The translations under genes were made by a program, and so were the position numbers. The notes beneath the pieces were generated by a model, which did not search any database, was not told the DNA's origin, and saw only the letters and a program-made list of their open reading frames with translations. A stretch of DNA of 64,000 nucleotides, from NCBI GenBank assembly GCA_006738865.1, contig AP019701.1, forward strand, positions 3,468,001 through 3,532,000. The letters are read 5' to 3'. Source of the DNA: Allostella sp. ATCC 35155. Lineage in GTDB: Bacteria > Pseudomonadota > Alphaproteobacteria > ATCC43930 > Allostellaceae. This document shows, piece by piece, positions 8,075 through 38,304 of this stretch; the first letter of the stretch is position 1, and each line of letters opens with the position of its first letter.

Positions 8075-8098
8075 CGCCCGGCAGCAGCAGGATCAGGC

Positions 8099-8395
8099 AT
8101 GGACTTCGACATCCCGACCTTCTGGCTCATCATCGGCTTCGCCGGTCAGGCCCTGTTCTCGGCCCGCTTCTTCGTGCAGTGGATCATGAGCGAGCGGATG
8201 CGCAAGAGCGTGATCCCGGTCGCCTTCTGGTATTTCAGCCTGGCCGGCGGAGTCACCCTGCTGGCCTATGCCATCCACCGCGAGGATCCCGTCTTCATCG
8301 CCGGCCAGGGCCTCGGCCTGCTCGTCTATTGCCGCAACCTCTGGTTCATCTGGAAGGAGCGGCAGTCGGGCGGCGGCACGGTCGAGGGCAGCTAA
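8099..8395 (+). CDS. Lipid A biosynthesis N-terminal domain (LABN) small membrane protein
   Basis: A 98-residue protein with three predicted transmembrane helices (about 7-25, 42-60, 67-85). The sequence FARFFVQWIxSERxxKSVIPxxFWYFSLxGG-like region (here SARFFVQWIMSERMRKSVIP) identifies the LABN (PF07578) family. Stand-alone LABN proteins are regularly encoded next to an ArnC/DPM1-like GT2, as here, and probably act with it in transfer or flipping of a polyprenyl-linked sugar; the exact role is not established. Its TAA stop overlaps the stop of the convergent vapC by three bases. Confidence 0.92.
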   Translation: MDFDIPTFWLIIGFAGQALFSARFFVQWIMSERMRKSVIPVAFWYFSLAGGVTLLAYAIHREDPVFIAGQGLGLLVYCRNLWFIWKERQSGGGTVEGS

Positions 8396-8817
8396 GGATT
8401 CCGGCCGAAATCGTCCAGTCCGCAGACGCGCCCTTCCCAGTCCGTCCTCTGGACAATGGACAATAGTCGACGGTCGGCGGTCACCAATCGAAGTCCCGTG
8501 CTGCGAGCAGCCACCAGATAGAGACAGTCATAGATCGGGTGCCCCAGCTGCATCGCCAGCAGAAGGGCATCGACGACCAGGGGCGTCGTCGCCACCAGCC
8601 GGTCGAAGACCGCGCCAAGCCCGGCAAGGGCCCGTTCCGCATCCACAGCGCTGATCTCGCCCCGCCGGTGACACCGCCAGAGGGCGCTTCCAGCCTCCAC
8701 GAGCAGGATATCCGGCGCCGCCAGTTCTTCACCGCTGGCGACAATGGCGCGCGCCGCGTCGGAACCCGGTTCGTCGAGATACCATTTGCAGGCGACCGAG
8801 GCGTCGATGAGCAGCAT
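8392..8817 (-). CDS. vapC: VapC-type PIN-domain toxin ribonuclease
   Basis: A 141-residue PIN domain with the acidic residues expected for a Mg-dependent RNase: the N-terminal LLIDASVACKWYLDE (Asp5), LLVEAGSAL (Glu), YDCLYLVAA (Asp) and VTADRRLL (Asp). VapC toxins cleave tRNA or rRNA when their antitoxin is degraded. It lies 11 bases downstream of the antitoxin gene, the usual order. The pair sits between the LABN gene and glcF with no mobile-element sequence around it. Confidence 0.9.
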   Translation of the reverse strand: MLLIDASVACKWYLDEPGSDAARAIVASGEELAAPDILLVEAGSALWRCHRRGEISAVDAERALAGLGAVFDRLVATTPLVVDALLLAMQLGHPIYDCLYLVAARSTGLRLVTADRRLLSIVQRTDWEGRVCGLDDFGRNP

Positions 8818-8828
8818 GGCGGGCGCGC

Positions 8829-9062
8829 CTAACGCCGGTCCCGTTCCTCCCGTATGATCTGGGTGCTGTCGATCGTGACTTGGCCGCGCGTTGCCGCCCG
8901 GACCCGATCCATCTCCTCCAACAGAGCCTGGCGGCTCGGCTTGGCCGCCTCCCGGAGGATGTCGCGCACCTGCTGCTCAAGCGACAAGTTGGCCAAGCGC
9001 GCGCGATCCTTCAACCGTTCGATCACGTCGTCGTCGAGGTTGCGCACCAGGATCTGGCCCAT
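8829..9062 (-). CDS. vapB: VapB/FitA-type ribbon-helix-helix antitoxin
   Basis: A 77-residue protein whose first 45 residues (MGQILVRNLDDDVIERLKDR onward) form a ribbon-helix-helix DNA-binding domain of the FitA/Arc type and whose charged C-terminal tail would wrap the toxin. I choose the ATG at 9062, ten codons inside the longest frame, because GGAG sits at the right distance before it and the RHH strand begins there. By analogy with vapBC operons the antitoxin and the complex repress their own promoter, which would lie in the 65 bases up to the glcF stop. Confidence 0.88.
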   Translation of the reverse strand: MGQILVRNLDDDVIERLKDRARLANLSLEQQVRDILREAAKPSRQALLEEMDRVRAATRGQVTIDSTQIIREERDRR

Positions 9063-13158: not shown

Positions 13159-13290
13159 GGGCGACCCCTTCCCCGCCTCGTCGTCCGGCCGGCCCGCGGC
13201 AGATCGGGTGGCCAAGCCCTCAAGGTAAAGGCTGGGCGGTCGGGGTCAAGCGCGGGCGGCTGCGCGCAGGCGGCCGCCCCAGGAGCAGAC

Positions 13291-13416
13291 TCAGCCCTGG
13301 CGCGCCTTGAAGCGCGGATTGCTCTTGTTGATGACGTAGACGCGACCCTTGCGCCGGATGACCCGGCAGTTCTTGTCGCGCTTCTTCATCGACTTCAGTG
13401 AATTGACGACCTTCAT
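13291..13416 (-). CDS. rpmJ: 50S ribosomal protein L36 (C-minus type)
   Basis: A 41-residue basic protein, [20 protein letters not shown] followed by [21 protein letters not shown], matching the longer L36 paralogue common in alphaproteobacteria. The zinc ribbon cysteines of classical 37-residue L36 are absent (only one Cys, C17), so this is the zinc-independent C(-) form. It stands alone rather than in the spc operon, again usual for this form. A good promoter lies upstream at 13467-13495. A 7-bp GC stem at 13254-13279 follows the gene but lacks a T run. Confidence 0.96.
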
Positions 13417-23885: not shown

Positions 23886-26060
23886 ATGGCGGCAGCGGCA
23901 GTCGAGCAGTTCGAACAGGCATTTGCACCGCCGACGGCCGATCTGAGGCGCCTGTTCGATCCGCGGACCATCGCCTTCATCGGCGCCAGCGAAGATCCCG
24001 GGCGCAACGTCGCCCGCTCGCTGCAGGCGACCATGTGGGCCGGCTTCCGCGGCCGCATCCTGCCGGTCAACCCGAAATACGAGACCGTCTTCGGCCAGCC
24101 CTGCTTCGCCGACATCGGCGACATTGCCGAACCGATCGACATCGTCATGGCCTTCGTCGGACCCGATCGGCTGCTCGACGTCTACCGGGCATGCCGCGGT
24201 GCGGGCTTCTTCATCGCCGTCGGTGACATCGTGCCCAAGGGCACTACCGGCGCGGATGTGCTGGAGCAGGAGATCCGGGCGCTCGCGCACAGCGGCTGGC
24301 CGCGCATCGTCGGACCGCAATGCGTCGGTATCGTCTCGCCCGAGACCGGGGCGGCGGCGACCATCTCCACGGCCGTCGACGACACGGGCCTGCCGCGCGG
24401 CCCGATCGGGATCGTCTCGCAGAGCGGCGGCATCGTCTCGTCCCTGATCGAGCGGGCACGGACCCTCGGGGGCGGCTTCAGCCACCTCGTCTCCAGCGGC
24501 GGCGAGTTCGACCTCGCGACGCCGGACTACCTGCGCTTCCTCGTCGACGATCCCGCGACCAGCGTCATCGGCATCTATGCCGAGAGCGTCGCCGACTATG
24601 GCGCGCTGCTGGCGATGGGGCGGCTGGCGCAGGCGCGCGGCAAGCCAGTCCTGCTGCTCCAGCCCGGACGCTCCGTCGCCGGTGCGGCGGCGGCGCAGTC
24701 GCACAGCGGCCGCATCGTCGGCGACCGCCAGGTCAAGGACGCCGCCTATCGGCGCAACGGCATCGTCACGGTCGACGATATCGACGACCTGCTGGTCGCG
24801 GGCATGCTTCTCGCACGCCATCGTCCGCAGCCCGGCACCGGGCTCGCGGCCTGCTCGCTGTCGGGCGGCTATGCCGCCGCGCTCGGCGATCGCATCGTCG
24901 ACCACGGCCTGCGGGCTGCCAGCTTCTCGCCCGCGACGGTCGCGCGCATCCGGGCCGAGACCAACCAGCAGAACCCGGCCAACCCGATCGATGCCGGCGG
25001 GCGCGGGCGGCCCCGCGCCGGCTATCTCGACGTGGTCCGCACGCTCGAGATCCTCGATGCCGAGCCGGATGTCGGGGCCACCATCTATGCCGAGACGCTG
25101 TTCAGCTACATGGAGGACATCGTCCCGGTGCTGCCGGAATTCGTGCGCAGCGCCGCCAAGCCGCATCTCGTCTGCTGGCAGGCCGGGCCCATGGTCGAGC
25201 CGGTGCTGGCGGATCTCCGCCGGGCCGGCGTCCTGACCTGCCGGGAACCGCACACGGCGCTGAGCGCGCTCCGCGCCTTCTACGACGTCGGTGACCTGCC
25301 GCCCGGTGACGTGCAGTCCGGTGACGTGCAGTCCGGCAACACGCCGGACGCCGTCCCGCCCGGCGCGGTGGACCTGCCGCCGGGGCCGGTCGACGACGAG
25401 GCGGCCCGTCGCCTGCTGGCCCGATACGCGGTGCCCTTCGTGCCGGAAATCGCCGCGGCCGATCCGGATGCGCTGTTCGCGCTCGCAGGCGGCATCGCCT
25501 TCCCGGTCGCGCTCAAGGGCGAAGTGCCCGGCCGCCTGCACAAGTCGGAGGCCGGGCTCGTGGCGCTCGACATCGTGGACGCCGATGGGCTGCGCGATGC
25601 GGCGGCGGCGATGGCAGCACGCGCGCCCGGCATCGTCCGGTTCCGGGCGCAGGCGATGGTCCGGGGCGGGCTCGAACTCATCGTCGGCCTCAAGAGCGAT
25701 CCTGCGGTGGGCACCGCCGTGCTCCTCGGCTTCGGCGGGATCTACGCCGAGGCCATGGGGCCCCCGGTCGTCGAGATGGCGCCCCTCGACACCGACCTTG
25801 CCGATGCCATGGTCTCGCGGCTCGATCGCAAGGGGATCCTCGAAGGCTATCGCGGCCGGACGCTGGCACGCGACCGCCTCGTCGCGCTCCTGGTGGCGGT
25901 CGGGCGGCTGGGCGCCGCCATGGGACCGACGCTGGCCGAACTCGACCTCAACCCCGTCATCGTCACCGCCGATGCCGCCATCGCCGTCGATGTGGCGATG
26001 GTCGCGGCGACGTCCGGCCCGGCACAGGCACCGAAAGCATCAACAGGGAGAACGCCATGA
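23886..26060 (+). CDS. ADP-forming acetate/acyl-CoA synthetase (single-chain)
   Basis: 724 residues. Domain order: CoA-binding Rossmann domain (about 20-115, FDPRTIAFIGASEDPGRN), a succinyl-CoA synthetase-like domain with the phosphohistidine region SHSGRIVGD (near 275), then a C-terminal ATP-grasp_5 domain from about residue 500 (RLLARYAVPFVPEI, ALKGEVPGRLHKSEAGLV, VELLVGLKSDPAVG-like IVGLKSDPAVG). Such enzymes make acyl-CoA from an organic acid with ATP giving ADP and phosphate. The hinge contains a 15-base tandem duplication (25303-25332). I use ATG 23886, preceded by AGGAGG; the frame is open 17 codons further. It overlaps the next binding-protein gene by ATGA, an unusual coupling of a cytosolic ligase to an importer. 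Confidence 0.92.
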   Translation: MAAAAVEQFEQAFAPPTADLRRLFDPRTIAFIGASEDPGRNVARSLQATMWAGFRGRILPVNPKYETVFGQPCFADIGDIAEPIDIVMAFVGPDRLLDVYRACRGAGFFIAVGDIVPKGTTGADVLEQEIRALAHSGWPRIVGPQCVGIVSPETGAAATISTAVDDTGLPRGPIGIVSQSGGIVSSLIERARTLGGGFSHLVSSGGEFDLATPDYLRFLVDDPATSVIGIYAESVADYGALLAMGRLAQARGKPVLLLQPGRSVAGAAAAQSHSGRIVGDRQVKDAAYRRNGIVTVDDIDDLLVAGMLLARHRPQPGTGLAACSLSGGYAAALGDRIVDHGLRAASFSPATVARIRAETNQQNPANPIDAGGRGRPRAGYLDVVRTLEILDAEPDVGATIYAETLFSYMEDIVPVLPEFVRSAAKPHLVCWQAGPMVEPVLADLRRAGVLTCREPHTALSALRAFYDVGDLPPGDVQSGDVQSGNTPDAVPPGAVDLPPGPVDDEAARRLLARYAVPFVPEIAAADPDALFALAGGIAFPVALKGEVPGRLHKSEAGLVALDIVDADGLRDAAAAMAARAPGIVRFRAQAMVRGGLELIVGLKSDPAVGTAVLLGFGGIYAEAMGPPVVEMAPLDTDLADAMVSRLDRKGILEGYRGRTLARDRLVALLVAVGRLGAAMGPTLAELDLNPVIVTADAAIAVDVAMVAATSGPAQAPKASTGRTP
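25303..25332 (+). repeat. Tandem 15-base repeat in the interdomain linker
   Basis: Two exact copies of CCGGTGACGTGCAGT lie head to tail and encode repeated GDVQS units in the linker between the CoA-ligase domain and the ATP-grasp domain of the acyl-CoA synthetase. The frame is kept, so the expansion only lengthens the hinge. Confidence 0.85.
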
Positions 26061-27136
26061 CCGAGAGCAAGCGCATCAGCCGGCGCGACGCCGGCCGCTG
26101 GATCGCAGGCCTGTCGCTGACGGCCGCAATGATCTCCGGCGGAAGCCGCGCCCAGGAGCCGCCGAAGCCCCGCCAGATCGTGGTCAACGCCTCGATCGGC
26201 GATACGCTGGTCGCGACCCGCAAGGTCTACTACGCCGAGTTCGAACGGCTCTACGGCATCAAGGTCGTGGAAAGCGGGCCGGTCAGCCTCGCCAAGCTGC
26301 GGGCGATGGTCGAGTCCGGCAACATCGAATGGACGATCTCCGAGGTCGGCGGCGAGGATGCGATCCGGGCCGAGAAGCTCGGCCTGTTCGAGCCGATCGA
26401 CCGCAAGATCGTCGACATGGATGCGCTGCCGGGCGCCGTCGGCCAGCGCAAGGTGACCCTGGCACGCGGCATCTATTCGACGACGCTGGCCTATCGCAAG
26501 GACGCCTTCAAGAACGGCAAGTATCCGCAGAGCTGGGTCGACTTCTGGGACGTGAAGAACTTCCCAGGGCCGCGCTCGCTGCGCGGACGCGCCATCGACA
26601 CGCTGGAGTTCGCCCTGCAGGCCGACGGTGTCCCGGTGGACAAGCTCTATCCGCTGGATCTCGACCGCGCCTTCCGGAAGCTCGACGAGATCAAGCCCCA
26701 CATCGCGGTCTGGTGGACGACCGGGCAACAGCCGGCGCAGCTCCTGATCGATCGCGAAGTGGTGATGACCAGCGGCTGGAACGGCCGCTTCTACAAGCTG
26801 CAGCGCGACCCGGCGAGCGGCATCGACACGGCCTGGACGGGTTCCATGGTCAAGATCGGCACGTTCGGCGTCGTCAAGGGGACACCCCACGCCTACTGGG
26901 GCCAGAAGATGCTGGCGGTGATGAACGATCCGAAGCTGCAGGCGGCCTACGCCGAGCAGGTCGGCTATCCCGGCACGCATCCCAAGTCCTGGGACTATGT
27001 GCGCGCGGAATCGCACCGGTACTTTCCGACCTCGCCCGTGAACCTGCCCAAGGTCGGCTGGACCAACGACGAATGGTGGGCCGCCAACGGCGGCGCCGTC
27101 GAGGAGCGCTTCGCGCGCTGGCTGCTCGCGCGCTGA
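26057..27136 (+). CDS. Spermidine/putrescine-type ABC substrate-binding protein
   Basis: 359 residues. The N-terminus SRRDAGRWIAGLSLTAAMIS resembles a Tat signal with twin Arg, cleaved near RAQEP. The mature part follows the PotD/AfuA-like family 1 pattern: VVNASIGDTLVATRKVYYAEFE, VESGPVSLAKLRAMVESGN, SWVDFWDVKNFPGPRSL and an acidic Trp-rich C-terminus. It would capture a polyamine-like or small organic ligand in the periplasm for the PotABC-like genes that follow directly. It begins inside the stop of the acyl-CoA synthetase (ATGA) and is followed after one base by the ATPase gene. Confidence 0.9.
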   Translation: MTESKRISRRDAGRWIAGLSLTAAMISGGSRAQEPPKPRQIVVNASIGDTLVATRKVYYAEFERLYGIKVVESGPVSLAKLRAMVESGNIEWTISEVGGEDAIRAEKLGLFEPIDRKIVDMDALPGAVGQRKVTLARGIYSTTLAYRKDAFKNGKYPQSWVDFWDVKNFPGPRSLRGRAIDTLEFALQADGVPVDKLYPLDLDRAFRKLDEIKPHIAVWWTTGQQPAQLLIDREVVMTSGWNGRFYKLQRDPASGIDTAWTGSMVKIGTFGVVKGTPHAYWGQKMLAVMNDPKLQAAYAEQVGYPGTHPKSWDYVRAESHRYFPTSPVNLPKVGWTNDEWWAANGGAVEERFARWLLAR

Positions 27137-27137
27137 C

Positions 27138-28220
27138 ATGGCATCGACCAGCCTGTCGCAGCCGCTGCACCTGGCCGGCATCGAGAAGCGCTTCGGCACG
27201 GTGGTCGCCATCGGCGGGGTCGATCTGGCGGTCGAGCAGGGTGAGTTCCTCACCCTGCTCGGCCCGTCCGGGTCGGGCAAGACCACGCTGCTGAAGATCA
27301 TCGCCGGCTTCGAGCATCCCGATCGCGGAACGGTGCGGATCGGGCCGGTCGACGTCACCCACACGCCGCCGGGCCGGCGGAACATCGGCATGGTGTTCCA
27401 GAACTACGCGCTGTTCCCGCACCTCACGGTCGAGCGCAACGTCGCCTTCCCGCTGGCGGTCCGCCGGGTCGCGAAGGCCGAGATCGCCCATCGCGTGCAG
27501 GCGGCCCTGGCCCTCGTCGAGCTGGACGGCTATCAGGCACGGATGCCCTCGCAGCTGTCCGGGGGCCAGCAGCAGCGCGTCGCGCTCGCCCGCGCCATCG
27601 TCTTCGATCCGGGGCTGCTCCTGCTCGACGAGCCCTTCGGAGCGCTCGACCGGCGGCTGCGCCAGCAGCTGCAGGAGGAGGTCCGGCGCCTCCAGCGCCG
27701 GCTCGGCCTGACCGCCATCTTCGTCACGCACGACCAGGAGGAGGCGCTCCTGATGTCCGACCGGATCGCCGTGATGAACGGTGGCGCGATCGAGCAGCTG
27801 GGCGCCCCGCACGAGATCTATGCCCGCCCGCGCACCGTGTTCGCGGCCGGCTTCATCGGCGAATCCAACCTCTGGCGCGGCGCGGTCGCCGGCAGGGAGG
27901 GCGACCGGACGACCCTTCGCCTCGACGACGGAACGACGCTCACCACCACCGCCGCGCCCACGGGCGGCCCGGTAGCGGCAATCGTCCGGCCGGAGAATGT
28001 GCGGCTGCTCGCGGACGGCGAGACGGCCGACAACCGGCGCGCGGTGACGGTCGAGGAGGTTGCCTATCTCGGCCAGAACCAGAAGTACCTGCTGCGCGAC
28101 GGCGGACACAGCCTGATTGCCGTGTGGTCGCTGGCGACCGTTCCCGTCGGGCGCGTCTCGCCCGGCGAGCGCGTCACGATCGGCTGGCCCGCCGAGGACG
28201 TCCATGTCATCCCCGGCTGA
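27138..28220 (+). CDS. PotA-like ABC transporter ATP-binding protein
   Basis: 360 residues with all ATPase motifs: Walker A GPSGSGKTT, Q-loop FQNYALFPHLT, signature LSGGQQQRVALAR, Walker B LLLLDEPFGALD, H-switch VTHDQEEAL, and a C-terminal TOBE domain (about 280-355, VRPENVRLLADGE). It energises import by the two permeases encoded next. Start ATG is one base after the stop of the binding protein; its last 17 bases overlap the first permease gene. Confidence 0.94.
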   Translation: MASTSLSQPLHLAGIEKRFGTVVAIGGVDLAVEQGEFLTLLGPSGSGKTTLLKIIAGFEHPDRGTVRIGPVDVTHTPPGRRNIGMVFQNYALFPHLTVERNVAFPLAVRRVAKAEIAHRVQAALALVELDGYQARMPSQLSGGQQQRVALARAIVFDPGLLLLDEPFGALDRRLRQQLQEEVRRLQRRLGLTAIFVTHDQEEALLMSDRIAVMNGGAIEQLGAPHEIYARPRTVFAAGFIGESNLWRGAVAGREGDRTTLRLDDGTTLTTTAAPTGGPVAAIVRPENVRLLADGETADNRRAVTVEEVAYLGQNQKYLLRDGGHSLIAVWSLATVPVGRVSPGERVTIGWPAEDVHVIPG

Positions 28221-29046
28221 GCCGCGGCGCCCGCGGTGGCTTCGCCTCGAGGGCCCGTTCGTGCTGGGGCTGCCAGCGATCCTGTTCCTGATGCTGCTGT
28301 TCGTCGGCCCGGTCCTGCGGCTGATGCTGATGTCGGTCGAGGGGGGCTCTCTCGCCGCATATGAGAAGGCCCTCACCGACGGGCTCTACCTCCGGGTCTT
28401 CCTCGACACGTTCGAGATCGCCGCCATCGTCACGGTCGCCTGCGCGCTGCTGGGCTACCCGGTTGCCTATGTCCTGACCACCCTGTCGCGCGGCTGGGCC
28501 GCGCTGGGCTTCGCCTGCATCATGATCCCGATGCTGACCAGCGTGCTGGTCCGCACCTATGCCTGGATGGTCCTGCTCGGCCGCAGCGGCATCATCAACC
28601 GGACGCTGATGGACTGGGGGCTCACCGATCGGCCGCTGGCCCTCATGTACAACCTGCCGAGCGTGATCGTCGCCATGGCCCACGTCCTGCTGCCGATGTT
28701 CATCTTGCCGGTCTATTCGGTGATGGTCAGGGTCGACCGCGAGCTGCTGCGCGCCGCCGACGGGCTCGGCGCCAGCGGCTGGCAGACATTCACGCGGGTC
28801 TACCTGCCGCTGACCTGGCCCGGCGTTCTGGCCGGGGCGACCCTCGTCTTCATCATCTCGCTCGGCTTCTACATCACGCCGGCGCTGCTGGGCGGCGGCC
28901 GCATCGTGATGATCGCCAACGTCATCGAGAACCAGGTGCAGGCGCTGCTCGACTGGCGCTTCGCCAGTGCCCTGTCCGTGGTCCTGCTCGTCGCCACCCT
29001 CGCGGTCCAGGCCGCCTCGAACCGTGTGCAGGCGCCCCGTGGCTGA
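28204..29046 (+). CDS. PotB-like ABC transporter permease
   Basis: 280 residues with six hydrophobic segments, beginning with LGLPAILFLMLLFVGPVLRL. The cytoplasmic EAA loop that contacts the ATPase is visible as RAADGLGASGWQTFTRVYLP. The ATG at 28204 (MSSPAEPRRP) overlaps the ATPase gene by 17 bases; it is preferred over earlier in-frame starts because it begins just before the first membrane helix. The following permease starts within about ten bases of its stop. Confidence 0.92.
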   Translation: MSSPAEPRRPRWLRLEGPFVLGLPAILFLMLLFVGPVLRLMLMSVEGGSLAAYEKALTDGLYLRVFLDTFEIAAIVTVACALLGYPVAYVLTTLSRGWAALGFACIMIPMLTSVLVRTYAWMVLLGRSGIINRTLMDWGLTDRPLALMYNLPSVIVAMAHVLLPMFILPVYSVMVRVDRELLRAADGLGASGWQTFTRVYLPLTWPGVLAGATLVFIISLGFYITPALLGGGRIVMIANVIENQVQALLDWRFASALSVVLLVATLAVQAASNRVQAPRG

Positions 29047-29056
29047 GCCGCATTCC

Positions 29057-29839
29057 ATGCGCCCCTGGCTGCGGCGGCTGCTGCGCGGCTATGCCCTGGC
29101 CGTCTTCGCCCTGCTGCTGCTGCCGCTCCTCATCATCGTGCCGATCTCGTTCAGTTCCGCCCGCTACCTGCAGTTTCCACCCCCCGGCTGGTCGCTGCAA
29201 TGGTATCGCCGCTACCTCGACGATCCGACCTGGATCGAGGCGACCTTCGTCAGCCTGCGGGTGGCGTCGGGCGCCACGGTCCTGGCGCTCGTCCTCGGCA
29301 CCGCGATGGCCTACAGCGTCGTGCGGGGGCGCTACCGCGGCCGGGTGCTCGTGGAGCGGCTGGGCAGCGGACCGATGATCGTGCCGCACATCATCATCGC
29401 CATCGCCATCTATGGCCTGTTCGCGCGGCTGCACCTGACGAGCAGCGAGGCCGGGCTGATCCTCGCCCACGCGGTGCTCGCGATCCCGTTCGTGCTGGCG
29501 GTGATGTCGGCGGCGCTGCGCACGGTCGATCCGGCCCTGGAGCAGGCGGCGATGAGCCTCGGGGTCGGGCGGGTCGGCGCCATCGTCCGGGTGACCCTGC
29601 CGCTCGTGCGTCCGGGCCTCGTCTCGGCGGCGGTGCTCGCCTTCCTCTCCTCGTTCGACGAGGTGGTGGTGGCGCTCTTCCTCAGCGGCACGACCAAGAC
29701 CCTGCCCAAGCAGATGTTCGACAACATCCAGAACGAGATCGACCCGACGGTGGCGGCCGTCTCGGTGCTGCAGATCGCGCTCGTGCTCGTGGCGCTGCTG
29801 ATCGTCTCGCGCTTCGGACAGAAGACGGTGCCCCGCTGA
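29057..29839 (+). CDS. PotC-like ABC transporter permease
   Basis: 260 residues with six transmembrane segments (first at YALAVFALLLLPLLIIVPIS) and the EAA motif EQAAMSLGVGRVGAIVRVTLP. The start is taken as ATG 29057; an in-frame GTG at 29039 overlapping the upstream stop codon is an equally possible coupled start that would add six residues. Completes the binding protein-ATPase-permease-permease importer. Confidence 0.92.
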   Translation: MRPWLRRLLRGYALAVFALLLLPLLIIVPISFSSARYLQFPPPGWSLQWYRRYLDDPTWIEATFVSLRVASGATVLALVLGTAMAYSVVRGRYRGRVLVERLGSGPMIVPHIIIAIAIYGLFARLHLTSSEAGLILAHAVLAIPFVLAVMSAALRTVDPALEQAAMSLGVGRVGAIVRVTLPLVRPGLVSAAVLAFLSSFDEVVVALFLSGTTKTLPKQMFDNIQNEIDPTVAAVSVLQIALVLVALLIVSRFGQKTVPR

Positions 29840-29882
29840 TCGCGATTTGCCGGGCGTTGCGATTCATGATCCTGTCACGGAC

Positions 29883-30809
29883 ATGAACGTGCGCCAGTTG
29901 GAAGTGCTGCGGACGATGATCCGGACCGGCTCGGTCAGCGAGACCGCCCGCCGCCTGGGCATGTCCCAGCCGGCGGCCAGCAAGATCCTGGGCGCGATCG
30001 AGCAGGATCTCGGCATGTCCCTGTTCAGCCGCGCCAACGGCCGGCTGCACACGACGCGCGAGGCGCAGGACCTGTTTCCCGAGATCGAGCGGATCTTCGG
30101 CGACATGGCGAGCTTCCGGCAGCGCGCCGCCGAACTGCGCGAGGGCCGGGCGGGCGAGGTGCGGATCGCGTCCGCGCCGGTCCTGGGCACGCTGCTGCTG
30201 CCGGCGGCGATGAGCCGCTTCGGCGCCGAGAACCCGGGCGTGCGCTTCGACGCCGTCGTCATGCCGACGCCCGAGATCATCGAGCGGGTGCGCAGCAACC
30301 GCGCCGACCTGGCGCTGGTCCAGGCAATCCCCGACGACACGCTGGTCGTCGCCGCCCGACTCTGCCACGGGCGGGTCGTGTGCATCCTGCCGCCGGACCA
30401 CCCCCTCGCCGACCGGCCGCAGGTGACGCCGAACGACCTCGCGCAGGAGCGCATCATCACCTTCCATCCCGGCGCACCCACCGGCGACCGCATCCGCGAG
30501 ACCTTCCGGGACTGCGGCGTCGCGATGGAGCAGACGGTCCTGACCAACCAGGCGTTCTTCGCCGCCTCGCTGGTCCGCAACCGGGTCGGCGTGGCCTTGG
30601 TGGATTCCCTGTTCCCCTTCGGCGAGTACCTGCCGGAGCTGGTGGTCGTGCCGCTGGAGCCCGAGATCCGGCTGAGCCTCAACGCCCTGTCCTCGCGCCT
30701 CCGCCCCCTGACGCCGGTCGCGCAGAACTTCGTGCGCACGCTTGCGACCGTGGCGGCGGAGCTGGTGGGTACCCACCCGGGCGTACTGTCGCCCGAACGG
30801 GGCAATTGA
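29883..30809 (+). CDS. LysR-type transcriptional regulator
   Basis: 308 residues: an N-terminal winged HTH (MNVRQLEVLRTMIRTGSVSE and ARRLGMSQPAASKILGAIEQ, about 1-60) and a periplasmic-binding-protein-like effector domain (VRIASAPVLGTLLLPAAMSRF onward). It would sense a metabolite and activate its target promoters. Unlike most LysR genes it is not divergent but lies 43 bases downstream of the permease in the same direction, so it may be the last gene of the uptake operon. ATG 29883 is used since the HTH begins there. Confidence 0.92.
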   Translation: MNVRQLEVLRTMIRTGSVSETARRLGMSQPAASKILGAIEQDLGMSLFSRANGRLHTTREAQDLFPEIERIFGDMASFRQRAAELREGRAGEVRIASAPVLGTLLLPAAMSRFGAENPGVRFDAVVMPTPEIIERVRSNRADLALVQAIPDDTLVVAARLCHGRVVCILPPDHPLADRPQVTPNDLAQERIITFHPGAPTGDRIRETFRDCGVAMEQTVLTNQAFFAASLVRNRVGVALVDSLFPFGEYLPELVVVPLEPEIRLSLNALSSRLRPLTPVAQNFVRTLATVAAELVGTHPGVLSPERGN

Positions 30810-30873
30810 CAGCTCGTCGCGGATCGCCGCATCCTCCGCTCCAAGGGGGCCTTTCCGCGATCGCCCCGTGAGG

Positions 30874-30885
30874 CCTCGGCCGAGG
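30874..30885. promoter_or_regulatory. 12-bp palindrome upstream of the chrB-like gene
   Basis: CCTCGGCCGAGG is a perfect palindrome 42 bases before the ATG of the rhodanese-ChrB gene, in the 118-base gap after the LysR gene. It could be an operator for chromate-responsive control, but its high GC content makes chance occurrence fairly likely. Confidence 0.35.
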
Positions 30886-30927
30886 TATCGCGTCTGTCAA
30901 CTTCCCGACCGGAAGGAAAAGACGCCC

Positions 30928-31752
30928 ATGCCCGGCCCCGAATCCATCACTGTTGCCCAGTTGGCCCGCCTCGTCGGAACGCCCGACGCGCCGGAGATCG
31001 TCGATGTCCGCATCGACGAGGATCATGCAGCCGACCCGCGCATGCTGCCCGGTGCCCGACGCCGCAGCCATCGCGACGTCGCCCGGTGGGCGGAAACCTG
31101 CCGTGGCCGCGCAGTCGCCGTCGTCTGCCAGCGCGGCCTCAAGCTGAGCCAGGGAGTAGCCGCCTGGCTACGCCACGCCGGAGCCCGCGCCGAGACGCTC
31201 GACGGCGGCTTCGAGGCCTGGGCGCAGGCCGGGGGTCTGCTCGTCCGGCCCGATGCGTTGCCGCCACCGGATGCCGAGGGCCGCACCGTCTGGGTCACCC
31301 GCGCCCGGCCCAAGATCGACCGCATCGCCTGCCCCTGGCTGATCCGCCGCTTCGTCGACCCGCGGGCGGTGTTCCTCTTCGTCTCCGCGTCGGAAGTCGC
31401 CGCCGTCGCCGACCGGTTCGGCGCGGCGCCCTTCGACATTCCCGACACCTTCTGGAGCCACCGCGGCGAAGCCTGCACGTTCGACGTCATGCTGGCCGAG
31501 TTCGGGCTCGCTTCGGAACCCCTCGAACGGCTGGCGCTCATCGTCCGCGGTGCCGACACCGATCGGCTCGATCTCGCCCCGCAGTCGGCAGGACTGCTCG
31601 CCGCCTCCCTCGGGCTGTCGCGGATGTACCGCGACGACCTCGGTCAGCTCGACGCCTCCATGGGCCTCTACGACGCATTCTACCGCTGGGCCCGCGACGC
31701 GACCGGAGAGACGCATGACTGGCCGGCGGCCGCTGCACGGGTGACCCCGTGA
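30928..31752 (+). CDS. chrB: Rhodanese-ChrB fusion, chromate resistance protein
   Basis: 274 residues. The first about 110 form a rhodanese domain (EIVDVRIDEDH, and the active-site loop VCQRGLKLS with a Cys at the catalytic position), the rest is the ChrB C-terminal (Chrome_resist) domain beginning TVWVTRARPKIDRIACPWLIRRF and RAVFLFV. ChrB proteins regulate or assist chromate efflux. The N-terminal ChrB domain of classical ChrB is replaced by the rhodanese. Shine-Dalgarno AAGGA precedes the ATG. The stop overlaps the GTG start of chrA, so the two are coupled. Confidence 0.88.
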   Translation: MPGPESITVAQLARLVGTPDAPEIVDVRIDEDHAADPRMLPGARRRSHRDVARWAETCRGRAVAVVCQRGLKLSQGVAAWLRHAGARAETLDGGFEAWAQAGGLLVRPDALPPPDAEGRTVWVTRARPKIDRIACPWLIRRFVDPRAVFLFVSASEVAAVADRFGAAPFDIPDTFWSHRGEACTFDVMLAEFGLASEPLERLALIVRGADTDRLDLAPQSAGLLAASLGLSRMYRDDLGQLDASMGLYDAFYRWARDATGETHDWPAAAARVTP

Positions 31753-33083
31753 CGGTCGCGATCCCCACATTCCGCGAGGCTCTGCGGGTCTGGCTGCGCA
31801 TCGGGCTGCTGTCCTTCGGCGGCCCGGCCGCGCAGATCGCGATGCTGCACCGCGCCGTCGTCGACGAACACCGCTGGATCTCCGACCGGCGCTTCCTGCA
31901 CGCGCTCAACTTCTGCACCCTCCTGCCCGGGCCGGAGGCGCAGCAGCTCGCCACCTATCTCGGCTGGCTGATGCACGGCGTCCGCGGCGGGCTCGCCGCC
32001 GGCATCCTCTTCGTGCTGCCGGGTGCGCTCGTCATGTTGGCGCTGTCCGTCATCTACGCGACGCTGGGTTCGGTGCCGACGATCGCCGCCCTGTTCTTCG
32101 GCCTCAAGGCGGCCGTCCTGGTCCTGGTGGTCGAGGCACTGCTGCGCGTCGCCCGGCGCGCGCTCAAGGGCCGGGCGGCCTGGGCATTGGCGACGCTCGC
32201 CTTTCTCGCCCTCTATGTCATGGGCGTACCGTTCCCCCTGGTGGTCCTGGCGGCCGCGCTCGTCGGCTTCCTTGCTCCCGCCGCCTTCGCCGCCGGGGGC
32301 CACGGAACGGCCGGCGGCGGCGACACGCCAACCGGCCTCGACGCGGCACTGGCGGCCGACCCGGGCCGGCCCGTGCGCCTGGCAGCGGCCGCCCGTCGTG
32401 CGGGGTGGACCGCACTGGTGCTCTGGCTGCTGCCGGTCGCCGCGCTGGCGGCCGCCGGTGCCGGCACCTATGCCGACATCGCGTGGTTCTTTTCGACCAT
32501 GGCCGTCGTCACCTTCGGCGGCGCCTATGCCGTGCTCGCCTATGTCGCGCAGGAGGCGGTCGAAATCTATCGCTGGCTGTCCGCAGCCGAGATGCTGGCC
32601 GGCCTCGGCCTCGCGGAGACGACGCCCGGCCCGCTCATCCTGGTGCTCCAGTTCGTCGGCTTCCTCGCCGGCTATCGCGAGGGCGGCATCGGCGGTGGCC
32701 TGCTGGGGACGGCGATCACGCTCTGGGTGACCTTCGCCCCCTGCTTTGCGTTCATCTTCCTGGGCGCTCCCGCCGTCGAGCGGCTGCACGGCAATCGTAA
32801 GCTCACCGGAGCCCTCGCCGCGGTGACCGCCGCGGTCGTCGGCGTCATCGCCAACCTGGCGCTGTGGTTCGGGCTGCGCGTCCTCTTCACCGAGGTACGC
32901 GAGCATCGCGCCGGGCCCTTCGCGATCGACCTGCCGGCGCTGTCCAGCCTCGACCCGCTCGCCGCCGCCATCGCCGTGCTCGCCGCGGCCTGCCTCTTCC
33001 GGCTGCGCCTCGGCGTCGTCCGCACCTTGGGCATCGCGACGGTCGCGGGCCTCGCCCTGCATCTTGCCGTCGGGCGCCTCTGA
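31749..33083 (+). CDS. chrA: Chromate transporter ChrA
   Basis: 444 residues made of two homologous CHR halves; the first is marked by LRIGLLSFGGPAAQIAMLHR and the second by AVVTFGGAYAVLAYVAQEAV, each with about five or six hydrophobic segments. ChrA exports chromate from the cytoplasm using the proton gradient. The start is GTG 31749, overlapping the chrB stop (GTGA). It ends 80 bases before hyuA. Confidence 0.94.
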   Translation: MTVAIPTFREALRVWLRIGLLSFGGPAAQIAMLHRAVVDEHRWISDRRFLHALNFCTLLPGPEAQQLATYLGWLMHGVRGGLAAGILFVLPGALVMLALSVIYATLGSVPTIAALFFGLKAAVLVLVVEALLRVARRALKGRAAWALATLAFLALYVMGVPFPLVVLAAALVGFLAPAAFAAGGHGTAGGGDTPTGLDAALAADPGRPVRLAAAARRAGWTALVLWLLPVAALAAAGAGTYADIAWFFSTMAVVTFGGAYAVLAYVAQEAVEIYRWLSAAEMLAGLGLAETTPGPLILVLQFVGFLAGYREGGIGGGLLGTAITLWVTFAPCFAFIFLGAPAVERLHGNRKLTGALAAVTAAVVGVIANLALWFGLRVLFTEVREHRAGPFAIDLPALSSLDPLAAAIAVLAAACLFRLRLGVVRTLGIATVAGLALHLAVGRL

Positions 33084-33163: not shown

Positions 33164-35266
33164 ATGTATCGCATCGGTGTCGATATCGGGGGCACCTTCA
33201 CCGACTTCGCCCTCTTCGACGCCGCAGGCGGCCGGATGGCGATCCACAAGCAGCTGACGACGCCGCGCGACCCTTCGGCCGCGGTGCTGGAAGGCGTGGC
33301 GACGATGCTGGCGCACAGCGGTGTCGCCATCGACCGCGTGCACGACGTCGTCCACGGCACGACGCTGGTCACCAACGCGGTGATCGAGCGCCGCGGCGCG
33401 GTCACCGGCATGCTGGTGACAGCCGGCTTCCGCGACATCCTCGATATGGGCTACGAGAGCCGGTACGACCTCTACGACCTCCGGCTGCGCTTCCCGCCGC
33501 CGATCGTGCCGCGCCGCCTGCGGGCGGAGATCGACGAGCGGATGCGGCCCGACGGCAAGGTCGAGCGCCGGCTCGACCGCGCATCCGTCCGCACCGCCGT
33601 CGCGGGGCTGAAGGACCAGGGCATCGAGGCGCTCGCCGTCTGCCTGCTGCATTCCTACGCCAACCCCGCCCACGAGCAGGCGGTGGCCAAGCTCGTCGCC
33701 AAGGAGTTCCCCGACCTCTACGTCTCGACCTCGGCCGACGTCTTCCCCAACATGCGCGAGTTCGAGCGCTGGACGACGACGACCGTCAACGCCTTCACCC
33801 AGCCGATGTTCGACCGCTACCTGCGGCGGCTGGAGGACGGGCTGGCCGGCCAGGGCTTCCGCGGCCGCGTCTACATCATGACCTCGAGCGGCGGCACCGT
33901 GACGACGGAGACGGCCCGGCGCTATCCGGTCCGCGCGCTGGAATCCGGCCCGGCCGCCGGCGCCCTGATGTCGGCCCACCACGGCCGCAACCTCGCGCTC
34001 GACAACGTGCTTGCCTTCGACATGGGTGGGACCACCGCCAAGGGCGCGCTGATCCGCAACGGCCAGCCGCTCAAGAAGTACATGATGGAGGTCGCGCGCG
34101 TTCACGAGTTCAAGCGCGGCAGCGGCCTGCCGGTGCGCATCCCGGTCATCGACATGATCGAGATCGGTGCCGGCGGCGGCAGCCTCGCCGGGGTCGACGA
34201 TCGCGGCCTGCTGCGGGTCGGGCCGAAGAGCGCCAGCGCCGATCCCGGCCCCGCCTGCTACGGCCGCGGCGGCACCGGCGCGACCCTGACCGACGCCAAC
34301 CTCGTGCTCGGCTTCCTCGATGCCGGCTTCTTCCTCGGCGGCGCCATGCGCCTCGACCGCAAGGCGGCCGAGGGCGCGATCCGCGAGGCCGTCGCCAAGC
34401 CTCTCAAGCTGTCGCTCGCGCGGGCCGCCTGGGGCATCCACGAGGTCATCAACGAGGACGTGGCGCGCGCCTTCCGCATCCACGCCTCCGAGCGCGGCTT
34501 CGACTATCGCGGCGCCAGCATGGTTGCCTTCGGCGGCTCCGGCCCCGTCCACGCCATGGCGATCGCCCGCAAGCTCAAGATCCCGCGCGTGATCTTCCCG
34601 GTCGGCGCGGGCGTCATGTCGGCGCTCGGCCTGCTGGCGAGCCCGCTCTCCTTCGAGGTCGCCCGCTCCCGTCGCGTCCATGTCGCCGACCTCGACGCGG
34701 CCGGCTTCGCCGAGACGTTCGGCCGCCTCGTCGCCGAGGCCTCGGGCTTCCTCACCCGCGCCGGGGTTGCCGAGACCGACGTGCGGGTCACCCTGCGCCT
34801 CGACATGCGCTACCAGGGCCAGGGGCACGATATCGAGGTGACGCTGCCGCAATCGGCCGACCTCGCAACGGGCGACCTCGCCGCCCTCTTCGCCGACCTG
34901 CCCCGCCTCTTCGCCGCCGCCTATGCCGAGACCTACCTCGTCAGCTTCCTCGAGGAGCCGATCGAGATCATCAACTGGAAGGTCGAAGCGGCCGGCCCGG
35001 CGCCGGACTTCACCTCCGGCTACAGCCTGGGCGACCCGCCCTCGGGCAATGCGAAGGCGGCCCTCAAGGGCAAGCGCCGGATCTATCTCAGCGAGGACGG
35101 CGACTATGCCGAGGTGCCGGTCTACGACCGCTACAAGCTGGCGCCCGGCACCCGCATCAGCGGCCCCTGCGTCGTCGAGGAGCGGGAGTCGACCTGCATC
35201 ATCGGCAAGGGCGACCGGGCGGAGGTCGACCGCCACTACAATCTCGTCGCCGAGCTGGCGCGGTAG
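33164..35266 (+). CDS. hyuA: Hydantoinase A / acetone carboxylase beta-like ATPase subunit (HyuA family)
   Basis: 700 residues starting with YRIGVDIGGTFTDFALFD, the phosphate-1 motif of the ASKHA-fold Hydant_A N-terminal domain, with a second phosphate motif at LAFDMGGTTAKGALI near residue 290 and GAGGGSLAGVD after it. HyuA pairs with HyuB to cleave ATP while acting on cyclic amides (N-methylhydantoin, 5-oxoproline, hydantoins) or to carboxylate ketones (acetone and acetophenone carboxylases). Which one applies cannot be told from this subunit. It lies 12 bases upstream of hyuB, followed by a dialkylglycine-decarboxylase-like gene with a GTGA overlap. Confidence 0.93.
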   Translation: MYRIGVDIGGTFTDFALFDAAGGRMAIHKQLTTPRDPSAAVLEGVATMLAHSGVAIDRVHDVVHGTTLVTNAVIERRGAVTGMLVTAGFRDILDMGYESRYDLYDLRLRFPPPIVPRRLRAEIDERMRPDGKVERRLDRASVRTAVAGLKDQGIEALAVCLLHSYANPAHEQAVAKLVAKEFPDLYVSTSADVFPNMREFERWTTTTVNAFTQPMFDRYLRRLEDGLAGQGFRGRVYIMTSSGGTVTTETARRYPVRALESGPAAGALMSAHHGRNLALDNVLAFDMGGTTAKGALIRNGQPLKKYMMEVARVHEFKRGSGLPVRIPVIDMIEIGAGGGSLAGVDDRGLLRVGPKSASADPGPACYGRGGTGATLTDANLVLGFLDAGFFLGGAMRLDRKAAEGAIREAVAKPLKLSLARAAWGIHEVINEDVARAFRIHASERGFDYRGASMVAFGGSGPVHAMAIARKLKIPRVIFPVGAGVMSALGLLASPLSFEVARSRRVHVADLDAAGFAETFGRLVAEASGFLTRAGVAETDVRVTLRLDMRYQGQGHDIEVTLPQSADLATGDLAALFADLPRLFAAAYAETYLVSFLEEPIEIINWKVEAAGPAPDFTSGYSLGDPPSGNAKAALKGKRRIYLSEDGDYAEVPVYDRYKLAPGTRISGPCVVEERESTCIIGKGDRAEVDRHYNLVAELAR

Positions 35267-35278
35267 GGAGGGCTCGTC

Positions 35279-36982
35279 ATGGCCAAGCGCAGCAAGGACG
35301 CCTTCGACGCCGTCAGCCTCGGCATCCTCTGGGACCGGCTGATCTCCATCACCGACGAGATCGTCTCGACGCTGGTGCGCAGTTCCTTCTCGACCATCGT
35401 GTCGGAGAGCTACGACCTCTCCTGCGTCGTCCTCGACGCCGAGGCGAACTCGATCGCCCAGGGCACGATGAGCGTGCCGATCTTCATCGCCAGCGCGCCC
35501 GTCACCGCGCGCCACATGCTGGAGCGCTTCCCGCCGGAGACGCTGCGGCCGGGCGACGTCATCTTCACCAACGATCCGTGGCTCGGCACCGGCCACCTCT
35601 TCGACGTGACCCTGCTGCGGCCCGTTTTCCGCAAGGGCCGCATCGTCGCCTACACGATGAGCATCACCCACCTGCCGGACATCGGCGGCATCGGCTTCGG
35701 CTCGTCGGCGACCGAGATCTATCACGAAGGCCTGCGCTTCCCGATCTGCAAGCTGGCCGAGGCCGGCCGTGTCGACGAGCGCCTGATCGAGATCATCCGC
35801 ACCAACGTGCGCGTGCCCGAGCAGGTGGTCGGCGACCTGATGGCCAACGTCGCCTGCAACGAGGTCGGCGGCCGCCAGGTGCTGGAGTTCATGGACGAGT
35901 ACGGCATCGAGGATCTGGGCCCGCTGTCGCGCGCCATCCGCGCGCATGCCGAGCGCGCGATGCGTGATCGCATCCGCACCAGCCTGAAGCCCGGCACCTA
36001 CCGCAACCGCATCGACCTCGAAGGGCTGGACGGGCCGATCCGCTTCGCCGTGCGCATCGACATCGACGGCGACCGGGTGCATTTCGACTTCGACGGCACG
36101 GGCCCCTGCGTGCGCGCCGGCATCAACGTGCCCTTCTGCTACACGCGCGCCATGTCGCTCTATTCGGTGAAGACGCTGACCCTGCCGTCGATCCCGAACA
36201 ATGGCGGCATGGCCGCGCCGATCACCGTCGAGGCGCCCAAGGGCTGCATCCTCGACGCCCAGCACCCGTTTGCCACCGGCGGCCGGCACGCCATGGGGCA
36301 CTTCGTCGTGCCGCTGATCTATGGCGCGCTGGCGAAGGCCGCGCCCGACCGGGTGCAGGCCGATTCCGGCATGATGAACCTCGTCACCTTCCAGGGCCGG
36401 CACCGCAACGGCCGCGGCGTCTCGACCATCTACTTCGCCGCCGGCGGCTATGGCGCGCTCGACGGCACCGACGGTGCGCCGACCGTGCCGCATCCCTCCA
36501 ACATGGCGGTCGTCCCGGTCGAGATCTGGGAGACGATCACCAGCACCACCATCGAGCGCAAGGAGCTGCTGACCGACAGCGGCGGCGCCGGCGCCTGGCG
36601 CGGCGGCCTCGGCCAGGAGGTGGTAGTCCGCAACGACTCGGGCGGCCCGATGACCCTGCTCGGCATGGGCAACCGCACCCAGTTCCCCGCCCGCGGCCTC
36701 TTCAAGGGCGGCGACGGGGCGATGCGCATGCATGCGATCGACGGCCAACCGATCAACGCCAAGGCCCGCGTCGAGCTGCCGGCCGGCGCCCGCCTCACCG
36801 TCCGCGAGGCCGGCGCCGGCGGCTTCGGCGATCCCGCCAAGCGCGACCCCGAGCGCGTGCTGGCCGATGTCCGCGAAGGCTTCGTCAGCCCCAAGGCGGC
36901 ACTCCGCGACTACGGCGTGAAGGTCGACCTCGTGAAGGGAACGGCGACGCGGCCGGCGCCGAAGAAGCGGGTCGCCAAGTGA
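35279..36982 (+). CDS. hyuB: Hydantoinase B / acetone carboxylase alpha-like subunit (HyuB family)
   Basis: 567 residues matching the Hydantoinase_B family: SLGILWDRLISITDEIVSTL near the start, GTMSVPIFIASAPVT, RPGDVIFTNDPWLGTGHLFD and HLPDIGGIGF, then RGGLGQEVVVR and GFGDPAKRDPERVLADVREG at the C-terminus. It contains the metal-ligand-rich region of the family and forms the complex with HyuA. Its stop TGA overlaps the GTG start of the next gene. No gamma subunit of acetone carboxylase type is encoded here. Confidence 0.94.
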   Translation: MAKRSKDAFDAVSLGILWDRLISITDEIVSTLVRSSFSTIVSESYDLSCVVLDAEANSIAQGTMSVPIFIASAPVTARHMLERFPPETLRPGDVIFTNDPWLGTGHLFDVTLLRPVFRKGRIVAYTMSITHLPDIGGIGFGSSATEIYHEGLRFPICKLAEAGRVDERLIEIIRTNVRVPEQVVGDLMANVACNEVGGRQVLEFMDEYGIEDLGPLSRAIRAHAERAMRDRIRTSLKPGTYRNRIDLEGLDGPIRFAVRIDIDGDRVHFDFDGTGPCVRAGINVPFCYTRAMSLYSVKTLTLPSIPNNGGMAAPITVEAPKGCILDAQHPFATGGRHAMGHFVVPLIYGALAKAAPDRVQADSGMMNLVTFQGRHRNGRGVSTIYFAAGGYGALDGTDGAPTVPHPSNMAVVPVEIWETITSTTIERKELLTDSGGAGAWRGGLGQEVVVRNDSGGPMTLLGMGNRTQFPARGLFKGGDGAMRMHAIDGQPINAKARVELPAGARLTVREAGAGGFGDPAKRDPERVLADVREGFVSPKAALRDYGVKVDLVKGTATRPAPKKRVAK

Positions 36983-38304
36983 CGCCCGAGGCCCCCCACG
37001 GCGCCTGGAGCGCCGACGTCGCGGACCACCTCATCCGCTACACGGCCAAGGGCTTCCTGCCGGGCATGATCACCCGCGCGAAGGGCGTCTATGTCTATGA
37101 CGCCGAGGGCCGCGCGATCCTCGACTTCGCGTCGGGGCAGATGTGCGCGACGCTGGGGCACAATCACCCCGCCGTGGTCGCAGCCATGCACGAGGCGGCG
37201 GCGGAACCGCTGCACCTCTATTCCAACATGCTGTCGCCGGCCGTGGTCGAACTGGCGGTCGAACTCGCCCGGCTGCTGCCGCCGACCCTGCAGAAGGCGA
37301 TGTTCCTGTCGACCGGCAGCGAGTCGAACGAGGCGGCGATCCGCATCGCCAAGCTCGCGACCGGCGGCTTCGAGGTCATCGCCATGGGCCATTCCTGGCA
37401 CGGCATGACGGCGGCCTCCAACGCCAGCACCTATTCCGGCGCCCGCAAGGGCTACGGCCCGGCGATGCCCGGCACCATGGCCCTGCCGCCGCCCAACGGC
37501 TATCGCTGCCCGATCCGCCACTGCGCCGGCACCTGCGACACCACCTGCCTCGATGTCGGCTTCGAGATGGCCGATATGCAGTCGGTCGGCGCCTATGCCG
37601 CCGTGATGTGCGAGCCGGTGCTGGCGGCGGGCGGCATCGTGGTGCCGACGGCGGACTACATGCGCCGCCTGCGCGAGCATTGCGACCGCCGCGGCCTGCT
37701 GCTGATCTTCGACGAGGCGCAGACCGCCTTCGGCCGGCTCGGCTCGCAGTTCGTCTTCGAGCAGCAGGGCGTCGTACCGGACATCCTGACCCTGTCGAAG
37801 TCGCTCGGCGGCGGCCTGCCGCTCGCCGCCACGGTGACGAGCGCCGCGATCGAAGCGGACATCCATGCCAAGGGCTTCCACTTCTACACCTCGCACGTCT
37901 CCGACCCCTTCCCGGCCCGCGTCGCGCTCGCGATCCTGCGCCTGATGGAAGCCGAACGGCTGGTCGAGAAGGCCAAGGCGGACGGCGCCTATTTCCTGGA
38001 CGGCCTGCGCGCCCTGCAGCAGCGCCACGAGGTGATCGGCGACGTGCGCGGCCTCGGCCTCCTCGCCGGCATCGAACTGGTGGAGGACCGCGCCTCGAAA
38101 CGGCCGGCGACGGCGCTGGGGCCGGCGGTCGTCCGCCGCTGCTACGAGCTCGGACTGCAGATCACCCAGTCCGGCGCCGCCCGCGACCCCGCCAGCGGGA
38201 CCGTCCTCAAGCTCGCCCCGCCGCTGGTCGCGACCCGCCCGGAGATCGACCTCGGGCTCGACATTCTCGATCGGGCGCTCACAGACAGCATCGGCAACGC
38301 GTGA
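36979..38304 (+). CDS. Class III PLP enzyme of the 2,2-dialkylglycine decarboxylase branch
   Basis: 441 residues, fold-type I PLP enzyme. The cofactor lysine is K274 (TLSKSLGGGLP), preceded by FDEAQTAFGR. Several residues that set 2,2-dialkylglycine decarboxylase (DGD) apart from ordinary aminotransferases occur in place: Q54 in ASGQMCATLGH, W140-H141 in SWHGMT, with the same spacings to the lysine as Q52, W138 and K272 of DGD (numbering from memory). The carboxylate-binding Arg of DGD (406) reads lysine here (K411 in LKLAPPL). A four-cysteine cluster C177-x4-C182-x3-C186-x3-C190 is also unusual. The GTG start overlaps the hyuB stop. Could decarboxylate/transaminate a quaternary or ordinary amino acid. 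Its stop abuts that of the convergent DMT gene (TGATCA). Confidence 0.85.
   Translation: MTPEAPHGAWSADVADHLIRYTAKGFLPGMITRAKGVYVYDAEGRAILDFASGQMCATLGHNHPAVVAAMHEAAAEPLHLYSNMLSPAVVELAVELARLLPPTLQKAMFLSTGSESNEAAIRIAKLATGGFEVIAMGHSWHGMTAASNASTYSGARKGYGPAMPGTMALPPPNGYRCPIRHCAGTCDTTCLDVGFEMADMQSVGAYAAVMCEPVLAAGGIVVPTADYMRRLREHCDRRGLLLIFDEAQTAFGRLGSQFVFEQQGVVPDILTLSKSLGGGLPLAATVTSAAIEADIHAKGFHFYTSHVSDPFPARVALAILRLMEAERLVEKAKADGAYFLDGLRALQQRHEVIGDVRGLGLLAGIELVEDRASKRPATALGPAVVRRCYELGLQITQSGAARDPASGTVLKLAPPLVATRPEIDLGLDILDRALTDSIGNA

Follow-up and report, generated by a model that had tools for sequence, protein, structure and literature searches.

A hyuAB-linked relative of 2,2-dialkylglycine decarboxylase with an altered substrate subsite in Allostella sp. 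ATCC 35155 and related genomes

The window analyzed here is a stretch of 64,000 nucleotides from Allostella sp. ATCC 35155 (positions 3468001 to 3532000 of a genome that is one contig of 5,339,096 bases), in which a hyuA-type gene, a hyuB-type gene and a gene for a class III pyridoxal phosphate (PLP) enzyme related to 2,2-dialkylglycine decarboxylase (DGD) follow one another (Table 1). A first-pass annotation of this DNA had described the three genes as one tight unit, and the description holds: the HyuA stop codon ends at 35266, the HyuB ATG stands at 35279 after a 12-base gap, and the HyuB and PLP frames share a GTGA overlap at 36979-36982. Promoter and terminator scans revealed no site of either kind. 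Genome-wide, 14 Hydantoinase_B and 16 Aminotran_3 (class III) matches were found; the trio provides their sole close pair (match starts 1.8 kb apart), and the next pair lies 32 kb apart. Under random placement, at least one pair as close, in any orientation, arose in about 14% of trials, and a single HyuB/class III adjacency in one genome is not striking by itself. The adjacency of the trio rises above chance because the orthologous linkage is conserved in other genomes.

Table 1. Genes and diagnostic codons of the hyuAB-PLP locus and its upstream region, in window coordinates
Feature	Position	Strand	Description and basis
hyuA-type gene	33164..35266	+	700 aa; ATP-binding (ASKHA) subunit, hydantoinase/oxoprolinase family, 'DMGGTTAK' subtype; Pfam PF05378, PF01968, PF19278 (Hydant_A_N, Hydantoinase_A, Hydant_A_C)
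hyuB-type gene	35279..36982	+	567 aa; metal-site subunit of HyuAB; PF02538 (Hydantoinase_B), 470 bits
DGD-like class III PLP gene	36979..38304	+	441 aa; Aminotran_3
Codon for HyuA Lys293 (= CapA Asp302, phosphorylation site)	34040..34042	+	Place of Asp302 from excerpts of PMC8453981
Codons for PLP enzyme Ala216-Ala217 (= DGD Ser214-Ser215)	37624..37629	+	Alignment
Codon for PLP enzyme Lys411 (= DGD Arg406)	38209..38211	+	Alignment
LysR-type regulator gene	29847..30809	+	PF00126, PF03466; possible regulator of hyuAB
ABC importer genes	26057..29839	+	SBP_bac_8 binding protein, ATPase with TOBE_2, two permease open reading frames (the second, 28967-29839, named from position and by eye); possible uptake

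Structure-database scores and a phylogenetic tree place the PLP enzyme with DGD, as the annotation had proposed, and rule out an ordinary omega-aminotransferase identity. DGD is its closest family of solved structure, at 428 bits, and the identity to DGD 1d7r of Burkholderia/Pseudomonas cepacia (DgdA; 1d7r, 1dka) reaches 51% (211 of 410 aligned residues); the next family, the alpha-amino-epsilon-caprolactam/amino acid amide racemases, follows at 220 bits. In a 27-row tree, which was midpoint rooted and has a very long racemase branch, six hyu-linked PLP proteins form one clade (support 100/99) outside the canonical DGD clade (100/100). The latter unites 1d7r, the second copies of the window genome and Stella vacuolata, the sequences G019a and G019b, and Marinibacterium DgdA.

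The annotation had also matched Gln54, Trp140 and Lys274 of the PLP enzyme to Gln52, Trp138 and Lys272 of DGD, and had taken these residues to indicate conversion of 2-aminoisobutyrate (AIB) to acetone. The three residues do align with those of 1d7r, but the functional claim was not borne out, since they are near-universal while Ser215 and Arg406 are Ala and Lys in the window enzyme. Our residue census covered 44 aligned rows: 6 hyu-linked, 1 racemase, and 37 further DGD-like sequences, among them 1d7r. The non-hyu DGD-like rows carry Gln52 in 37/37, Trp138 in 34/37, Lys272 in 37/37 and Met141 in 22/37 cases. The three cited residues do not discriminate, and were rejected as proof of the DGD reaction; DGD should not be called from them alone.

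The subsites A, B and C of DGD are reported to comprise Q52, W138, M141, S215, K272 and R406 (excerpts of PMC10169451). Four of these six residues (Gln52, Trp138, Met141 and Lys272) are kept in the window enzyme, as is Tyr301. Unlike 1d7r, however, it has Ala, Ala and Lys for Ser214, Ser215 and Arg406, and the loop before Lys406 is longer by 3 to 4 residues. Position 406 is unreadable in one hyu-linked and one other row, both cut before it; it is Lys in 5/5 readable hyu-linked rows and Arg in 36/36 others. Position 214 is Ala in 6/6 hyu-linked rows and Ser in 36/37 others (Gly in 1/37), and position 215 is Ala in 6/6 hyu-linked rows and Ser in 27, Ala in 9 and Val in 1 of the 37 others. This matching of residues rests on sequence alignment; an AlphaFold model built from a 7-sequence alignment had a mean pLDDT of 60.5, and no fold search was based on it. 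Ser215 and Arg406 form the B subsite of DGD. A positive charge at DGD 406 helps decarboxylation, and the laboratory mutants R406K and R406M are said to be impaired in substrate binding; our literature search returned nothing usable on DGD Arg406, nor on R406K among the papers listed. The cyanobacterium Leptolyngbya sp. BL0902 carries a plasmid-borne DGD-like gene (stretch positions 12001-13311) that shares 61% identity with the window enzyme and has Ser214, Ser215 and Arg406 in place.

Alternatively, the PLP enzyme may no longer decarboxylate and may act as a transaminase or racemase/epimerase on the substrate or product of HyuAB. The second-best structural match, alpha-amino-epsilon-caprolactam racemase (2zuk, 3dxv), belongs to the same class III family; racemase substrates of this kind (alpha-amino-epsilon-caprolactam/amino acid amide) lack a free carboxylate, and in 2zuk position 406 is Glu instead of Arg. 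However, 2zuk carries Trp and Tyr for Gln52 and Trp138, both of which are kept in the window enzyme and in 6/6 members of the hyu clade, and the racemases score half as many bits as DGD does. We regard such a loss of decarboxylation as unlikely.

Five further genomes have PLP orthologues of 64% identity or more, namely Stella humosa and S. vacuolata (Stella is a star-shaped bacterium), G002 of the same genus as the window, and G053 and G108, which are assigned to its class but not to its order. Orthologous trios are adjacent in the window, G002, G053 and G108, which establishes the hyuAB-PLP linkage as conserved. Neither a missing linkage nor a placement among omega-aminotransferases, two outcomes that would have told against the annotation, was thus observed. 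The hyuB/PLP junction is a 4-base overlap (ATGA) in G002 and G053 and a 9-base gap in G108. From hyuB to the PLP gene the distance is 6.0 kb in S. vacuolata and 8.1 kb in S. humosa, so that linkage to hyuAB, adjacent or at 6 to 8 kb, is present in 6/6 members of the PLP clade. At E 1e-145, the order of G108 (15 genomes) and the order of G053 (1 genome) yielded no further clade member. We also examined 36 other DGD-like loci for hyuAB, 20 of them in stretches of 3.9 to 25 kb with tblastn limits of 1e-20 or 1e-12, and 16 in stretches of 2.4 to 4.3 kb with a limit of 1e-8, where flanks of about 1.5 kb show immediate neighbors only. No HyuA or HyuB match appeared in the examined stretches of 34/36 loci.

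The other two of these 36 DGD-like loci have HyuAB-type sequences nearby. On contig C67 of genome G224, a DGD-like gene that keeps Arg406 is followed directly by a fused HyuA-HyuB gene, the two frames overlapping or abutting. The fused protein is of a different subtype (30% identity in the HyuA part, 26% in the HyuB part), and G224 is possibly an independent pairing of DGD-like and HyuAB chemistries. In genome G018, a HyuB match lies about 12 kb from the DGD-like gene.

A rival reading is that hyuAB and the PLP gene became neighbors by co-transfer or chance and share no pathway. HyuB (14) and class III (16) matches are abundant, giving the random adjacency of about 0.14 in the window genome, S. 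humosa and S. vacuolata have the trio in two separate parts, and the HyuA of G053 (contig C18) nests among Stella sequences though this genome is not assigned to their order, a placement consistent with lateral transfer of the unit as a block or with a binning error. Against this, the residue changes of the PLP enzyme coincide with linkage, the 4-base overlaps or 9-base gap persist in G002, G053 and G108, and S. humosa and S. vacuolata retain both halves although these are separated. Neighborhood without a shared pathway thus seems quite improbable to us.

The closest solved relatives of HyuA and HyuB are hydrolases. HyuA scores 416 bits against N-methylhydantoinase 7hk5 and 353 bits against caprolactamase CapA 6yra, versus 167 to 275 bits against carboxylases, and HyuB scores 207 bits against N-methylhydantoinase and 189 against caprolactamase, versus 66 to 84 against acetophenone and acetone carboxylases. 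The phosphate motifs D7-x-GGTFTD and D286-x-GGT of HyuA (CapA Asp11 and Asp295) are kept, and the adenosine motif GxxPGP reads SADPGP, with PGP kept and Ser for the first Gly. In HyuB all four metal ligands are kept (D46, H106, D109 and H131, equivalent to CapB D41, H99, D102 and H124). HyuAB, a putative cyclic-amide hydrolase, has its ATP and metal motifs largely intact and a hydrolase-like length. N-methylhydantoinase (7hk5/9h03), the nearest solved relative of both subunits, differs from the window pair in being a single chain of 1288 aa with Asp at the position of CapA Asp302, where the window has two genes and Lys; the vicinal cysteines 410-411 of CapB are absent from the window HyuB.

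The annotation had offered as an alternative that a HyuAB of the acetone carboxylase type consumes the acetone formed by the PLP enzyme, a reading that we widen here to other ketone products. HyuA and HyuB are indeed homologous to the subunits of acetone and acetophenone carboxylases, with which they share a superfamily, but the score differences above point the other way, and HyuB with 567 aa is near CapB (581 aa) and short of the carboxylase HyuB-like subunits of 684 and 776 aa (lengths from the available part of PMC8453981). These carboxylases combine their longer HyuB-like subunit with an extra subunit (same source, in part); next to the window HyuAB, no gene for the gamma subunit was seen. 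A genome search for this subunit (PF08882) gave no match, which does not show absence because none of the control genomes gave a match either. Such a coupling was rejected as the main reading on HyuB size and scores, and we consider it highly improbable.

In CapA, Asn269 and Asp302 surround the phosphorylation site, and Asp302 is described as conserved in the portion of PMC8453981 consulted. The window HyuA instead has Glu260 and Lys293 at these places, a Glu/Lys (E/K) pair that occurs in 23/27 compared HyuA rows. Asp stands at the 302 position in CapA, 7hk5, G397far and the fused G224 protein, and in the five solved HyuA-like chains (four enzymes), out of six, whose alignment could be read. 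The E/K rows form one clade in the HyuA tree (100/100), in which long branches leave the placement of the references unsure. Within the window genome, the motif was readable in 11 of 13 other HyuB neighborhoods and has Lys in 5 (Glu alongside in 4) and Asp in 6. Judged from these alignments, the E/K HyuA is a broad subtype; by-eye inspection revealed varied neighbors of E/K-type HyuAB elsewhere. Neither the pair nor Lys293 could be upheld as trio-specific, the pair being common to 17 HyuA without a DGD-like neighbor in their stretches and Lys occurring in 5/11 readable own-genome paralogues. We know of no characterized E/K-type HyuA; the sequences of Pseudomonas NS671 HyuA and of IaaC stood outside the comparison. 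On contig C10 of G108 (stretch positions 5585-8869), HyuA is followed by two tandem HyuB genes with abutting matches.

The window genome encodes a second, canonical DGD at 4180374-4181642, which shares 71% identity with 1d7r and has retained Ser214, Ser215 and Arg406. A divergent LysR-like gene adjoins the canonical copy in the window genome and in S. vacuolata, and likewise Marinibacterium dgdA, whereas the window PLP gene adjoins hyuAB. The first-described DGD was reported alongside a repressor gene, according to a reference title within the excerpted PMC10169451. No HyuA or HyuB match was found in a 19 kb stretch around the canonical DGD of the window genome. The canonical form was seen in two of four Stella genomes (the window genome and S. 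vacuolata), and G053 gave at E 1e-95 a second DGD-like match of 43% identity.

These data bear on the route from a 5,5-dialkylhydantoin to a ketone that the annotation had suggested, in which HyuAB would open the hydantoin, a distant carbamoylase would free the dialkylglycine, and an ordinary DGD would yield ketone, CO2 and alanine. HyuC, the carbamoylase of the hyuABC pathway, is of the M20 family. As the annotation had remarked, no carbamoylase is visible at the locus: the window contains no M20 (PF01546) match, other carbamoylase families not having been searched. The genome has 23 M20-family matches, which are possible carbamoylases, but the nearest to the window lies at 3634256. The 51% identity to DGD is near the 51.9% between yeast DGD1 and bacterial DGD, and Gln52, Trp138, Met141 and Lys272 are kept; yeast DGD1, however, converts AIB to acetone with all six subsite residues kept, including the Ser215 and Arg406 that the window enzyme lacks (accessible text of PMC10169451). 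The route also gains from S. humosa, G002 and G108, which showed no canonical DGD, and loses from the canonical DGD with its divergent LysR-like gene elsewhere in the window genome and S. vacuolata. A literature search linking dimethylhydantoin to hydantoinase found nothing, and one on dimethylhydantoin degradation and 2-aminoisobutyrate nothing on point by title among those listed. The terms 'hydantoinase' and 'dialkylglycine decarboxylase' together returned only PMC3281772, which, in the part available, concerns transaminases for beta-amino acids. The dialkylhydantoin claim is weakened, possible but not favored, and we hold it to be rather unlikely. Elsewhere in the genome, at 3782598-3787615, another HyuB has an M20-family match about 2.6 kb off on the same strand, which looks more like the classical hydantoinase-carbamoylase arrangement.

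The explanation we lean toward, still tentatively, is a two-step catabolic module in which HyuAB opens a cyclic amide and the DGD-like enzyme processes the released amino acid. HyuAB, with ATP and its metal site, would open an imported lactam, hydantoin or imide and free the amino acid; the PLP enzyme would then remove the amino group, which would pass to a keto acid, and probably the carboxylate too. We infer the order of the steps, the decarboxylation, the transport, and a change of substrate rather than of reaction type. Because Ser214 and Ser215 are replaced by Ala, and Arg406 by Lys, at this subsite of the hyu-linked clade, the amino acid is probably not AIB and would carry a substituent that is different or bulkier; decarboxylation is still possible because Gln52 and Lys272 are retained. 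By analogy, the module would most likely be built like a caprolactamase plus a transaminase. The precedent is the caprolactam cluster of Pseudomonas jessenii GO3, where the caprolactamase CapAB and the class III aminotransferase PjAT are encoded together (PMC6061476, in the part available). The window shares with it an ATP-dependent two-subunit enzyme of the cyclic-amide hydrolase family and a class III enzyme; unlike in P. jessenii GO3, the PLP enzyme is DGD-like and not an omega-aminotransferase, and HyuA has Glu/Lys for CapA N269/D302.

Several observations weigh against this module. No class III match stands in the examined stretches of other E/K-type HyuA (0/17 aligned, 0/21 counting four more stretches; several are cut by contig ends), and the six linked genomes do not form a well-supported single clade in the HyuA tree (51/70). 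The hyu-linked PLP clade is rare, with members in 3/385 sampled genomes of the class, the window counted, and a phylum search of 398 genomes at E 1e-145 returned only the window's own gene. In S. humosa and S. vacuolata, the interval from hyuB to the PLP gene holds other open reading frames, some on the opposite strand, so that co-transcription is not general. The Ser215-to-Ala change alone is not special, because Ala stands in 9/37 other DGD-like rows. Finally, S. humosa and G002 at E 1e-100 and G108 at E 1e-95 gave the hyu-linked match only, with no canonical DGD in the former two and no second DGD-like match in the last; in these three genomes the hyu-linked enzyme could be the sole DGD-like protein and so take on the function of DGD.

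The more specific proposal of a new pathway, in which an E/K-type HyuAB would feed a decarboxylating transaminase that derives from DGD and has its substrate clamp remodeled (Arg to Lys, Ser-Ser to Ala-Ala) for a new quaternary or bulky amino acid, is conceivable but doubtful. If true, it would present a DGD paralogue that in nature acquired a new substrate via change at a reported subsite position. DGD is unusual among PLP enzymes in that decarboxylation and transamination take place in one active site (PMC6411801, as excerpted). A conserved natural clade with Arg406 replaced by Lys and tied to a ring-opening enzyme would offer a ready test of DGD substrate choice. Moreover, because Lys-type HyuA account for 5/11 readable own-genome paralogues, the substrate of the trio could help to assign many hydantoinase-like genes.

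Upstream of the trio and on its strand, transport genes recur in different forms, as would suit a small molecule that is taken up and broken down. The window and S. humosa have the same order before hyuA, with an acyl-CoA-ligase-like gene, the ABC importer, the LysR gene and a ChrB/chromate-transporter pair, while G002 has TRAP DctPQM genes upstream of the trio and G053 a DctP-type binding-protein gene plus a second similar open reading frame. In S. vacuolata, only the LysR gene of that set was found in the stretch upstream of hyuA, and the ABC importer was not found there. In the window, S. humosa and S. vacuolata alike, the LysR gene precedes hyuA and shares its strand. Between LysR and hyuA, the window (30742-33083) and S. 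humosa carry the genes for a ChrB-like rhodanese and a chromate transporter; insertion or loss of this pair is suggested because in S. vacuolata the pair is absent and LysR and hyuA are only 87 bases apart.

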